Shown: positions 4,853 through 23,756 of the stretch, piece by piece
Numbering within the stretch: position 1 is the stretch's first letter
Layout: each line of letters begins with the position of its first letter
NCBI GenBank assembly: GCA_018714125.1
Contig: DVNV01000031.1
Span: 1-35,530 of the forward strand
DNA from: Candidatus Galloscillospira excrementipullorum
GTDB taxonomy: Bacteria; Bacillota; Clostridia; Oscillospirales; Feifaniaceae
DNA length: 35,530 bases
Direction: 5' to 3'
Position numbers and translations under genes: made by a program
Notes under the pieces: generated by a model
The model's database searches: none
Told to the model about the DNA's origin: nothing
Seen by the model: only the letters and a program-made list of their open reading frames with translations

Positions 4853-6145
4853 TCATTCGTTTGCGGGGGCGGGAGCGTTGTTGAGGGCGTCAAATTTGGC
4901 GATTTCGGCGGGAGAGGTGCGGATGGCCGCCAGCATGAGGACCAGCACCAGCAGTGAGCAGACCGAGACCGCCACAAAGGCGGGGATGTAGGAGCCGGTG
5001 ACGTCGCGGATGGCGGCGGTGACCGGCATGCCCAGCGAGACGCCCAGCCGGTCAAAGACCTGGCAGACGCCGTAGATGCGCGAATACTCGCGCTCGCCCA
5101 GCAGGCGGCCGGTCATGTAGGGGGGCTGCATGGTGGGGGCGGCGTTGGCAAAGCCGAAGACGAGGGAAAAGACCATGGGCAGCGGCGAGCGCGAGGCAAA
5201 GCACAGCACAAGCCCCGAGAGCGTCATGAGCGAGAAGAGCATGATGGTTCCGGTTTTCATGCCGAAGCGGTCGTACACGCGGCCCAGCACGACCTTGCCC
5301 AGCACCAAAATGGCCATCATGGCCGAAAAGACCCTTGCGGCATACATGGAGGAGTAGCCGATGTCGGTCAGGTAGGCAATCAGGTTGTTTTGCAGGCCCA
5401 TGCTGCAGACCTCGGTGAGGAAGAGGGCGCCGCCGTAGAACCAGAAGGTTTTGGACTTGAAGGCCTGGGCGCGCGTCATGCCCGAGAGCGGGCGGTTCTC
5501 GCCCGCCGGGGCGACGGGCAGCGAGTCTGCCCCGAGGGCCCGTTGCCCCATCTCCTCGGGGGTCTCCTTGATGAGGAAGAGGATGACGGGCACCGTGATG
5601 ACGAGGTAGACAACGGCAAGCTGCACGAAGCCGGCGCGCCAGCCGGTGCCCTCGATGGTGGCCGTGACGATGGGGGTCATGACCGAGCCGGCAAGGCCGG
5701 AGCCGGCCAGGGCAAGGCCCATGGCAAGGCCGCGCTTTTCCACGAACCAGTTGGAGAGGATTTTGGGAATGGGCACGCCGATGAGCATGCCCTGGAAAAG
5801 GCCCTTGACCGAGCCGATGACATAAAACCAATAGACATTTTTGGCCATGGAGTAGCCGAACATGCAGGCGCCGATGATGAGGCAGCCCACCAGCATGACG
5901 TTTTTGAACCGGTGGTCTTTGAAAAATTCTCCCCAGATGGGGGCCATGAGCAGGCCCGCAAAGGTGGAAAAGGAGGAATAGAGCGTAAACACCGAGCGGG
6001 TGACGTCGAACTCTGTGGAACAGGGGACGATAAAGGCGGAGAGCGTGTTTTGAATGATGCCGATGGCGGCAGCCTGGATGCACAGGCAGCCAAACACCAC
6101 GACCCAGCCGTAGAAAAACCGGGGAGCATGCCGTTGCTGCTGCAA
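4853..6145 (-). CDS. MFS transporter
   Basis: RFFYGWVVVFGCLCIQAAAIGIIQNTLSAFIVP and repeated TM pattern. TTG at 6145 with AAAGGTGTG upstream is a plausible start (ORF extends to 6181). Confidence 0.8.
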   Translation of the reverse strand: MQQQRHAPRFFYGWVVVFGCLCIQAAAIGIIQNTLSAFIVPCSTEFDVTRSVFTLYSSFSTFAGLLMAPIWGEFFKDHRFKNVMLVGCLIIGACMFGYSMAKNVYWFYVIGSVKGLFQGMLIGVPIPKILSNWFVEKRGLAMGLALAGSGLAGSVMTPIVTATIEGTGWRAGFVQLAVVYLVITVPVILFLIKETPEEMGQRALGADSLPVAPAGENRPLSGMTRAQAFKSKTFWFYGGALFLTEVCSMGLQNNLIAYLTDIGYSSMYAARVFSAMMAILVLGKVVLGRVYDRFGMKTGTIMLFSLMTLSGLVLCFASRSPLPMVFSLVFGFANAAPTMQPPYMTGRLLGEREYSRIYGVCQVFDRLGVSLGMPVTAAIRDVTGSYIPAFVAVSVCSLLVLVLMLAAIRTSPAEIAKFDALNNAPAPANE

Positions 6146-6231
6146 AAAAATCACACCTTTCTCAAACGGTCTTGAAAGCAAGGCGTCCCCTGCCGCGCGC
6201 CCGGGAGAGTTTTTTCCTCAGGACAAACAAA

Positions 6232-6373: not shown

Positions 6374-7672
6374 TCAGAGGAGGAACTGCTGCTCCAGCTC
6401 GTTGTTGATTTTGTCAAAGGCGGGAATTTCCTTTTTGGAGAAGCGGATGGCGAAAAGCTCCAGCGCCATGATGACAAAGGCCAGCGCGGCAATGGCGATA
6501 AAGGCGGGGACATAGGAGCCCGTGATGTCGCGCACGGCTGCGGTCAGGGGCACGCCGACGGCGCTGCCCATGCTGACAAAGGGCTGACAGACGCCGTAAA
6601 TGCGGGTGTATTCCCTCTCCCCCAGGAGTTTTCCGGTCATATAGGGGAGCTGCATGGTCTGGATGGTGTCGCCGAAACCGAAGACAATGGCGAAGATGAC
6701 CGGGATGGGCGAGCGCACTGACAGGATCAGCAGCACGGCTGACAGCGAGAGCGTCACCGTAATCACGATGGAGCCAATCCGGATGCCAAAGCGGTCATAG
6801 ATGCTGCCCAGCGCGATTTTGCCGGGCACCAGAATGAACATCATGAGCGAAAAGATGCTGGCGGCATACATGGAGTCAAAGCCCACGTCGGTGAGGTAGC
6901 CGATGATGTTGTTTTGCAGGCCCATGCCGCAGAGCTGGGTGAGAAAGAGGGCCGCAATGTAGCACCAGTAAGTCTTGGAGCGAAATGCCTGGGCGCGCGT
7001 CATGCCGGAGATGGTGCCTCCCATCTCGGCGGGGACTGCCTGGACGTGATCCCAGCCGAGGGGCTTTTGGCCCACGTCCGAGGGGTGCTCCTTGATCAGG
7101 AGCAAAATCACGGGGATGGTGATCAGGAAGAAGACAATGGTGAGCTGCCGGAAGCCGGCACGCCAGCCCATGTTCTGGATGGTGGCCGTGACAAGAGGGG
7201 TCATGATGGAGCCGGCAAGGCCGGAGCCCGCCAGGGCCACGCCCATGGCAAGGCCTCTCTTTTCAATGAACCAGTTGGAGAGGATGCGGGGGATGGGCAC
7301 GCCCGTGAGCAAACCCTGGAAAATTCCGTTGACGGAGGAAATGATGTAAAAATGATAGACGTTGGTGGCCAGCGAGTAGCACCACATGCCGCCGGTCATG
7401 AGCAGACAGCCCAGCAGCATGAAGGGCTTAAAGCGCCGGTTTTTGAAAAATTCACCCCAGAGCGGCGCCATCAAAAGGCCCGACACCATACCAAAAGAGG
7501 TATACATGGTAAAGGTGGCGCGCCCCACCTGCAGGTCTTCAGAGCAGGGCACGATAAAGGCCGAAAGGGTGTTGGAGAGAATGCCGACGGCGGCGGCCTG
7601 GATAAACATGCAGCCGGCAACGACTACCCAGCCGTAAAAAAAACGGGGGCTTTTTCGTGAGGAGAGTTCCAT
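6374..7672 (-). CDS. MFS transporter, paralog of the adjacent gene
   Basis: RFFYGWVVVAGCMFIQAAAVGILSNTLSAFIVP closely resembles the neighbouring ORF along its length. Start site uncertain (ATG 7672 or TTG 7693). Confidence 0.8.
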   Translation of the reverse strand: MELSSRKSPRFFYGWVVVAGCMFIQAAAVGILSNTLSAFIVPCSEDLQVGRATFTMYTSFGMVSGLLMAPLWGEFFKNRRFKPFMLLGCLLMTGGMWCYSLATNVYHFYIISSVNGIFQGLLTGVPIPRILSNWFIEKRGLAMGVALAGSGLAGSIMTPLVTATIQNMGWRAGFRQLTIVFFLITIPVILLLIKEHPSDVGQKPLGWDHVQAVPAEMGGTISGMTRAQAFRSKTYWCYIAALFLTQLCGMGLQNNIIGYLTDVGFDSMYAASIFSLMMFILVPGKIALGSIYDRFGIRIGSIVITVTLSLSAVLLILSVRSPIPVIFAIVFGFGDTIQTMQLPYMTGKLLGEREYTRIYGVCQPFVSMGSAVGVPLTAAVRDITGSYVPAFIAIAALAFVIMALELFAIRFSKKEIPAFDKINNELEQQFLL

Positions 7673-7939
7673 GGAAGAATACCAGCCTTTCAAAAAAACG
7701 CCCGGTGGGCGCGTAGTGCGACGGCGGCAAAAAAAAAGAACAGCCGCACGACGTTAAAAACAATAGAGCCAGTATATCACACCACGGGGAACAAAAACAA
7801 GGATTAGGCGAAAAAAAGCAAAACATTTTCAAAAACAGACAAAAGAAGCGGAAAAATAAGAGTAGAAACCATAAAAAAACAAAAATTCTGCACAATGAAA
7901 CGGGGCTGCCGGCGGCGCCGGCCTCAGGGGCGGCTCTCG

Positions 7940-21913: not shown

Positions 21914-21942
21914 CACCACTTTTCGCCTGCCGACATAAGATA
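21914..21942 (+). promoter_or_regulatory. Possible sporulation sigma-K-like promoter
   Basis: CAC - 17 nt - CATAAGATA, matching the AC...CATANNNTA pattern, upstream of the Cys-repeat protein gene. Confidence 0.3.
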
Positions 21943-22055
21943 AAGCGGATGGCCCCGATGGGCGGTGTCGCCTGCGGCCACATCCCAATTTTGAAACGTG
22001 GCGCGCCAGGCAAGGCGCCCTGCGCCATGTGATTCTTAGAAATGGAGGAATCCTC

Positions 22056-23426
22056 ATGCGTCTGGAACTGCAATCGGCGCTGTGCGCCGAGCTCACGGAG
22101 GCCAATCTGCGCGGGATGGCCTTTGACGGCAGTTATTTCTATGTCCCGCTTCCCGCCACAGGGCAGGTGCAAAAGCTCGACCGTCAGCTTGGCCTGGTGG
22201 CGACGCTGTCGGCCGGCCGCCGGTACGACCTGCTCTACTGGGACGAAGTCGGCCAGGTTTTTTGGGCGGCGTCTGCCGAGGTGCCCCGCACGGTGTTCCG
22301 CCTCTCCCCCGCCTTTGCGCTGCAGGAGACGGTGACGCTGGCAACGGCGTCCTGCGAAAGCACCCCCATCCGCTCCATCGGCGTCAACTGCAGGAGCAAC
22401 CGCCTGCTCATCACCACGCCCTCTTGTGTCAACGAATACGAGAAAAACGGGGCCTTTGTGGCAACGAGGCTGCGCGCCGGCACCGGCGTTTCGCTCTCGT
22501 ACGTCCTGACCATCGCGCCCTACACGCTGATTTCCTACACAAAGAACGGAAGAAACTTCTTGGAGCTCTCGGATGCCTCGGGCAACAACCTGGGCAACCT
22601 GCGCACGCCGCGAGGCGTTTTCCTGGGCGCGCTGCTCTTTGACCCGCGCAGCGCCCCCTCGAGCGCGGCCGCCTACATCGCCGCCTGGCGCGGCGGCAGA
22701 AGCATGGTGCTGCGCCAGCCGCTCGGCGTTGTCCCCGACAACTGCAATTTCGGGGCCGGCGCAGATGGGGATACCGACAACTCCTGCTCTTGCAACTGCG
22801 GAAACTGGAACGGCTGCGGCAACTGGAACGGCTGCGGCAACTGGAACGGCTGCGGAAACATGGGGGCAAACAACTGCCACCTGTGCGGCAACTGGAACGG
22901 CTGCAACTGCGGCAATATGGGCACAAACGGCTGCGGCTGCAACTGCGGCGTCATGGGCAATGCCGACCCCTGCGCCTGCGCCTGTGCCTGTGCCATGGCG
23001 CAGGCCGGCCACTGCGGCTGCCACAGCCACGACTGCGGCGACGAGGAAGAGGAGGAGCGCACGCCCTGCCAGAGCGCAGTGGATGCGGCCGACGACATCT
23101 TGGGCGCCATCAACCAGATCAACGATGCCGTGGCACAGCTTCTCAAGGAGTGCTGCGACGTCTCCGACGACGAAGAGGATGAGGGCGGCGACGGCTGCCA
23201 TCACTGCGGCGGACACCGCCGTCCCCGGCCCGGCAAGGCCTGCAGCTTGGGCGGCAACAGCAAGAACCGGCTCCGTGAACTGGAGCAGCTGCTGCTGTCC
23301 CAGCTGCAGACCGTGCAGGAGACCGAAACTCCTGCCGTTGTCGGAGAGGGGGGAACTCCATGTGCTGCCGGAACCGCAGACCAGAGCCGCAGTGCCAGTG
23401 CGACAGATCTTGTCTTTGTCGGCTGA
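22056..23426 (+). CDS. Propeller-like protein with Cys/Gly/Asn-rich repeat region; candidate spore or cell-surface protein
   Basis: N-terminal repeats such as FDGSYFYVPLPATGQVQKLDRQLGLVATL, then CGNWNG tandem repeats, CACACACAM, acidic and His/Cys clusters. ATG 22056 with GGAGGA RBS. Confidence 0.75.
   Translation: MRLELQSALCAELTEANLRGMAFDGSYFYVPLPATGQVQKLDRQLGLVATLSAGRRYDLLYWDEVGQVFWAASAEVPRTVFRLSPAFALQETVTLATASCESTPIRSIGVNCRSNRLLITTPSCVNEYEKNGAFVATRLRAGTGVSLSYVLTIAPYTLISYTKNGRNFLELSDASGNNLGNLRTPRGVFLGALLFDPRSAPSSAAAYIAAWRGGRSMVLRQPLGVVPDNCNFGAGADGDTDNSCSCNCGNWNGCGNWNGCGNWNGCGNMGANNCHLCGNWNGCNCGNMGTNGCGCNCGVMGNADPCACACACAMAQAGHCGCHSHDCGDEEEEERTPCQSAVDAADDILGAINQINDAVAQLLKECCDVSDDEEDEGGDGCHHCGGHRRPRPGKACSLGGNSKNRLRELEQLLLSQLQTVQETETPAVVGEGGTPCAAGTADQSRSASATDLVFVG
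22797..22850 (+). repeat. 18-bp tandem coding repeat (TGC GGM AAC TGG AAC GGC)x3
   Basis: Three consecutive units encode CGNWNG; a degenerate fourth (CGNMGA) and later copies (CGNWNGCNCGNMG) follow. Confidence 0.95.
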
Positions 23427-23497
23427 TTTGCTGCCTGTGCCTTTGCGGCAGGGACCGATGTGAGCCGAGAGGCAGATGCCTGAGAAGCCGCTGGTAG
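23360..23497 (+). CDS. 45-aa Cys/Arg-rich small protein overlapping the upstream gene in another frame
   Basis: MCCRNRRPEPQCQCDRSCLCRLICCLCLCGRDRCEPRGRCLRSRW* (12 Cys); GGAGAGGGGGG about 6 nt before ATG. Confidence 0.5.
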   Translation: MCCRNRRPEPQCQCDRSCLCRLICCLCLCGRDRCEPRGRCLRSRW

Positions 23498-23528
23498 GCC
23501 CTGACGCAGCAGGTCACAGAGGGAATTT

Positions 23529-23570
23529 GCGCAAGGGGAGGGGAAAACGGCTTTTCCCCTCCCCTTGCGC
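23529..23570 (+). terminator. Hairpin (likely terminator) after the Cys-rich locus
   Basis: Perfect 19-bp arms GCGCAAGGGGAGGGGAAAA / TTTTCCCCTCCCCTTGCGC with 4-nt loop; a TTTTTT run follows about 20 nt later. Confidence 0.55.
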
Positions 23571-23756
23571 GCCGGGGGGCCGCCCCCCTTTTTTGCCCGG
23601 CGGGCAGGCATAAAAAGAGCGGCCGCAGGGCAAAATTTCGCTTTTCGGAACCGGGGGGATATGGTATAATCGGTATTAAATAGGAAAGGGGGCGCACAGA
23701 AGGGTGCGCTTTGACCGGCTGGTGTCCGGCGGGGACATGTGCGAAGGGAGAGGGCA

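Follow-up and report, generated by a model that had tools for sequence, protein, structure and literature searches.

A stretch of 35,530 nucleotides from Candidatus Galloscillospira excrementipullorum (contig DVNV01000031.1; this whole stretch is referred to below as the window) contains an unannotated small ORF that begins inside the 3' end of a larger coding sequence, here called the host gene, in another frame. This raises two questions: whether the small ORF is a gene at all, and whether its product would be made as a separate small partner of the host protein or as a tail added to it by frameshifting. Both readings had been offered in a preliminary description of the locus.

Results

A small Cys/Arg-rich ORF overlaps the end of a Cys-repeat gene

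The small ORF lies at positions 23360-23497 of the forward strand. Its translation, MCCRNRRPEPQCQCDRSCLCRLICCLCLCGRDRCEPRGRCLRSRW*, is exactly the 45-aa product with 12 Cys that had been described, and it also contains 11 Arg. As described, it starts within the 3' end of the upstream coding sequence (22056-23426); it is in the -1 frame relative to the host gene, and the two share 67 nt (23360-23426). With a Cys fraction of 0.267, it ranks first among the window's 358 ORFs of 30 aa or longer, the runner-up having 0.171. This composition is not a by-product of the host sequence: when the host gene was recoded synonymously using its own codon usage, the shared stretch encoded on average 1.0 Cys, and none of 20,000 recodings had an open small frame with at least 6 Cys in the overlap. 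Six of the 12 Cys lie 3' of the host stop codon, where the host gene constrains nothing. The small ORF is very probably a real gene rather than a product of chance.

The small protein matched no Pfam and no NCBIfam family at E values up to 1, with metallothionein profiles included in the former search and the SCIFF peptide model in the latter; family, fold and database searches (Pfam, NCBIfam, PHROGs, PDB) gave nothing informative.

The host gene (22056-23426, forward strand) encodes 456 aa and is preceded by the Shine-Dalgarno (SD) sequence GGAGG at 22044-22048 on the same strand, with a duplex energy of -9.3 kcal/mol. Its product consists of a putative N-terminal domain of ~233 aa, a region of Cys/Asn/Gly repeats (NWNGCGNWNGCG..., encoded at about 22785-23036) and an acidic helical C-terminal part. 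No Pfam, NCBIfam or PHROGs family was found above the cut-off, and there was no match in phage and plasmid collections; the AlphaFold prediction, made with two sequences, had a pLDDT of 33 and the fold was unusable. The repeat region varies in length and repeat content among the sister species, with CHLCGGTDGASDNG repeats in one of them (G002).

Orthologs of the small ORF occur in three species of one genus

We compared the source genome with G003, G002 and G001 from its own genus, and with G004, G033 and genomes of family f19. The host gene was present in four of the eight family members compared. The host protein was 86% identical over the alignment in G003 (contig CALWCA010000011.1, 'uncultured Clostridia bacterium'), 63% identical in G002 and 41% identical in G004, a member of another genus, while the homolog in G033 was weaker. 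A 180-nt tract (21980-22159) that runs from the noncoding 5' leader into the beginning of the host coding sequence shows 100% identity between the source genome and G003, as against mostly 80-95% in the host coding sequence beyond it; the tract either recombined recently or is a leader under constraint. Distant homologs in G206 and G092 (family f19, same order) share the host N-terminal domain and a Cys-rich C-terminal tail, so that coat-like proteins with Cys tails seem to form a broader, uncharacterised family.

The small ORF was found at the same place in both G003 (45 aa, 91% identity) and G002, where it starts with GTG (41 aa, 49% identity). Stop codons or a loss of Cys in orthologous loci had been named beforehand as arguments against the gene. 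Internal stops were absent from both orthologs, but the Cys content was not fully kept: G003 has 13 Cys, whereas in G002 there are 8, of which six occupy shared positions, indicating that not all of the Cys are constrained. Invariant in all three species are C3, NRR, E9, Q11, RSCLCR, LCxC and C40, and the CxC...CxC pattern formed by C18, C20, C27 and C29 is conserved.

The host homologs of G004, G033 and the f19 genomes had no comparable overlapping small Cys-rich ORF, and G001, although from the same genus, has neither the host gene nor the small ORF. When the order was searched with a profile of the small protein, significant matches came from the three genus members alone, the remainder being low-complexity background (E about 0.005 or worse). 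Two weak matches within the family were rejected as homologs: one (G004:C22) sits within a topoisomerase-like reading frame, the other (G004:C7) in an unrelated frame. The small ORF is thus known from three species of a single genus, which limits the claim.

The small frame is under purifying selection

Comparison with the relatives, proposed earlier as a check of Ka/Ks and frame conservation, showed selection on the small frame, which is open in G003 and G002. Between the source genome and G002, the overlap had a dN/dS of 0.32 when read in the small frame and of 1.79 when read in the host frame, the value for the host N-terminal domain being 0.18; the excess of nonsynonymous host changes in the overlap over the N-terminal domain had a Fisher p of about 0.001. 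The source genome and G003 differ by two substitutions within the overlap; each leaves the small protein unaltered and changes an amino acid of the host protein. In neutral simulations, so few amino acid changes without a stop arose with P=0.018 for the comparison with G003 (whole ORF) and P=0.011 for that with G002 (first 36 codons). These tests rest on three sequences and are accordingly modest in numbers and power, and all of them point one way. We conclude that the small frame is under purifying selection, while the host frame in the overlap is not; the last 22 host codons look unconstrained, and the small frame appears to dominate selection there.

The same comparisons speak to the idea that the stretch is maintained for a non-coding role, as a DNA element or as an RNA such as one derived from the 3' UTR, the open small frame then being incidental. 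Such an element would fit a conserved RNA hairpin directly 5' of the ORF and a 16-nt stretch, GATCTTGTCTTTGTCG, that is identical in all three species. It would not explain why substitutions favour synonymous changes in the small frame and avoid stops, or why recoding of the host frame cannot reproduce the Cys content. Furthermore, the alignment of the source genome with G003 is ungapped up to the end of the small ORF and then collapses (58% identity, with gaps, in the next bin). We consider this explanation very unlikely, and that the small ORF codes for a protein highly likely.

The small ORF probably has its own strong initiation site

The good SD-like tract mentioned in the preliminary description proved to be a very strong one. 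The SD of the small ORF (GAGGGGGG, 23346-23353, forward strand) is conserved in three species, and the tract GGAGAGGGGGG ends 6 nt 5' of the ATG. The duplex with the anti-SD had an energy of -11.3 kcal/mol in the source genome, -11.3 kcal/mol in G003 and -12.0 kcal/mol in G002 (AGAGGAGG); the site of the source genome surpassed the ten other starts checked in the window and ~99% of random 22-mers drawn from it. The start codon occupies a single alignment position in the source genome, G003 and G002 (ATG, ATG and GTG, respectively). The host residues encoded over the SD tract change from GEGG to REEE in G002, and the purine-rich character is retained. The fact that the SD was kept although the host codons changed points to selection on the nucleotide signal itself, and we are fairly confident that the small ORF initiates independently.

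The alternative is that the Cys-rich sequence is no free protein and is instead attached to the host protein as a C-terminal tail by -1 frameshifting at G_GGG_GGA (23348-23354). The small frame is indeed -1 relative to the host frame, GAG GGG GGA in the source genome and G003 reads as a heptamer of the X_XXY_YYZ type, and the distant host homolog of G004 itself has a short C-terminal tail with Cys, CPRQSGCDC. However, the heptamer is missing in G002 (AGA GAG GAG GAA AAC), which nevertheless has the ORF and an even stronger SD, and frameshifting gives no reason for a start kept at one position with an optimal SD. The -1 frame 5' of the small start is closed by stops. Stimulators of frameshifting normally lie downstream of the slippery site, whereas the conserved hairpin at this locus lies upstream of the G run. 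A frameshifted tail is therefore disfavoured and in our judgement quite improbable; of the two readings offered at the outset, the separate small partner is the one supported by the start, the SD, the selection and the point at which conservation ends. A longer small protein reaching into the upstream -1 frame was also rejected, owing to stops in the source genome and G003 and, further upstream, in G002.

The accessibility of the SD was moderate (about 0.5), and its sequestration by RNA structure was rejected, as no sequestration was conserved across the species. For these reasons, a mechanism coupling the small ORF to translation of the host gene is only proposed.

A conserved RNA stem-loop lies within the host gene upstream of the small ORF

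A single long RNA stem-loop (23241-23308, forward strand) lies within the host coding sequence, 37-105 nt 5' of the SD of the small ORF. Its z-scores against dinucleotide shuffles were -3.5, -2.8 and -4.5 in the source genome, G003 and G002, and in each of these species it was the most structure-biased window of the coding sequence relative to synonymous recodings (z of -3.4, -2.7 and -5.7 among 43, 45 and 38 windows, in the same order). The codons of this region are also unusually frozen: in host codons 393-424, which end about 30 nt 5' of the small start, 22 of the 24 residues conserved between G003 and G002 use identical codons, as against 107 of 212 in codons 1-392 (p=6e-5). Nine of the ten variable columns of the stem-loop are unpaired; since the paired columns are nearly invariant, there is no covariation to cite. 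No Rfam family was above the threshold, with chance matches only. We rejected the possibility that the stem-loop is a repeated genomic element, because it was found at this locus only in the genomes searched. A second hairpin just 5' of the SD was also rejected as a conserved element, as on inspection its pairing register differs among the species.

We infer that the stem-loop affects translation of the overlap, with the sign of the effect either way. It would probably tune translation of the small ORF, either by slowing host-translating ribosomes or by insulating the internal start.

The two genes probably form one sporulation-type transcription unit

The small ORF is followed by two hairpins on the forward strand. 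The first corresponds to the strong hairpin previously placed at 23529: it spans 23528-23571 and has a 20-bp stem and a 4-nt loop (fold of 23516-23600, -55.1 kcal/mol). The second is an intrinsic-terminator-like GC hairpin, GGGGGGCCGCCCCCC, followed by TTTTTT (23574-23594), and is a probable operon end. This order suggests that the host gene and the small gene probably share one transcript. The neighbouring genes encode an M20-type peptidase and a zinc-ribbon-like protein; in G002, the gene after the small ORF is a different, convergent one, and the zinc-ribbon gene is on another contig. Elsewhere in the window, two adjacent, similar MFS-type transporter ORFs (4853-6181 and 6374-7693, reverse strand) stand in tandem, as judged by eye from their translations.

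Dense Cys codons directly 5' of a strong hairpin and a terminator could also mark a Cys-responsive leader, in which ribosomes would stall at tandem Cys codons when charged tRNA-Cys is low and so alter the hairpin at 23528 and downstream expression. Polycysteine attenuators have been reported in mycobacteria. Here, however, no further ORF separates the small ORF from the terminator, the gene beyond is no known gene of Cys metabolism and is replaced by the convergent gene in G002, and G002 has a sparser Cys run, all of which makes a leader extremely unlikely.

Upstream of the host gene lies a sigma-K-like promoter, CACC-N16-CATAAGATA (21914-21942, forward strand), which is conserved in four species. 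In G003 and G002 it is kept with the 16-nt spacing (CACC-N16-CATAGGATA), while the spacer sequence has diverged in G002; the counterpart in G004 is CACC-N16-CATAGATT. The bare pattern matches once in the window and twice in the genome, compared with six genomic matches of a reversed control pattern. As the pattern by itself is not enriched, the case for the promoter rests on its conservation. Sigma-K promoters of C. difficile combine AC at -35 with a CATA-type -10 shared with sigma-E, as in an example with AC and CATATAAT (PMC3789822).

SpoIVA is present in the source genome and most relatives, and the source genome contains genes for sporulation-type sigma factors, including an adjacent pair whose arrangement suggests sigma-E and sigma-G. 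No clear copy of sigK was found in the draft assembly of the source genome; it was found in G003, G004 and others. In G001, a sigma-K-like gene seems to be split between two contigs, G001:C368 and G001:C11 (profile positions 12-119 and 108-226), possibly because of an assembly break or a skin-type insertion.

This setting bears on a further alternative, namely that the small gene is real and unrelated to spores, encoding a vegetative, metallothionein-like metal-binding or redox protein. The conserved CxC...CxC pattern would suit such a function, and expression during sporulation is only predicted. Against it stand the conservation of the promoter in four species, the Cys-repeat nature of the host protein and the lack of any match to metallothionein or other Pfam and NCBIfam families. 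We regard a vegetative protein as improbable.

Discussion

Taken as a whole, we consider it reasonably probable that the locus harbours a nested, separately initiated small gene in a sigma-K-like sporulation unit, encoding a Cys/Arg-rich partner of a coat-like host protein. The two-gene unit would start at the sigma-K-like promoter and end at the terminator near 23590. The passage of ribosomes along the host gene would leave the region accessible, and a basic 45-aa protein with many CxC and CC motifs would arise from an initiation of its own at the very strong internal SD; this may be direct internal initiation, either while host ribosomes pass or in the intervals between them. The mother cell may then deposit both proteins, with disulfide cross-linking in an outer spore layer, a possibility suggested by co-expression with a Cys-repeat coat-like protein. 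The small CxC/Arg-rich protein would most likely be a cross-linker or adaptor laid down together with the host protein. Since there is no homology to known coat proteins, the argument for a role in spores draws on the type of promoter, the composition and the lineage, and we offer this role as an informed guess that leans only slightly towards being right.

The closest known analogues are the Cys-rich proteins CdeC and CdeM, which, according to excerpts of two reports, build the C. difficile exosporium and for which disulfide cross-linking has been proposed (PMC6101409, PMC7677010). In these excerpts, CdeM has C-terminal CNCCNCCRK repeats and CdeC has Cys repeats; like the small protein, whose spore role is presumed, both are Cys-rich proteins of Clostridia. 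However, CdeC and CdeM are much larger (405 and 161 aa) and have about 9% Cys, compared with 45 aa and 27% for the small protein, and the excerpts describe no gene overlap for either, whereas the small ORF overlaps its host. Searches of Pfam, NCBIfam, PHROGs and PDB gave no homology to known coat or exosporium proteins, CdeC and CdeM being set apart by description.

Another Clostridia comparison is offered by the SCIFF peptides, which have six Cys in forty-five residues. The small protein resembles them in length, Cys richness and lineage but differs in its 12 Cys arranged in CxC and CC motifs, in having no NCBIfam match and in its peptidase and zinc-ribbon neighbours.

For the gene arrangement, a precedent is the coat/lysis pair of phage MS2, with a spacing of -50 nt, in which translation of the host gene and RNA structure govern the internal start (PMC12548453). 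In both cases, a small gene starts well inside the 3' end of the upstream gene in another frame, and RNA structure is involved in its start, in our pair presumably so. Our pair is chromosomal, however, and the small ORF has its own very strong SD, while the hairpin lies 5' of the start without sequestering it and coupling is putative. The small ORF and its host may plausibly work much as the MS2 pair does, but with a strong SD of its own.

Overlaps of such length are unusual: in over 80% of the gene pairs that overlap, the shared stretch is shorter than 30 bp (PMC12548453). The present overlap is co-directional like other same-strand bacterial overlaps, but it is 67 bp long and selection in it acts mainly on the small frame. 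A bolder version of our proposal would be overprinting, in which the small gene took over the last codons of the host, the C-terminus of the host protein became free to vary, and the stem-loop would set the stoichiometry of cross-linker and host protein; as a whole, we find this doubtful.

Long same-strand overlaps with selection on the hidden small frame have rarely been documented in bacteria, and ORF-length cut-offs conceal such overlapping small genes. If translated, the small ORF would define an orphan family whose members are very small, rich in Cys and Arg and probably linked to sporulation, and would provide a compact, testable case of an RNA hairpin within a coding sequence acting on an overlapping start. 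It would also mean that Cys-rich partners may be encoded within each other's genes.
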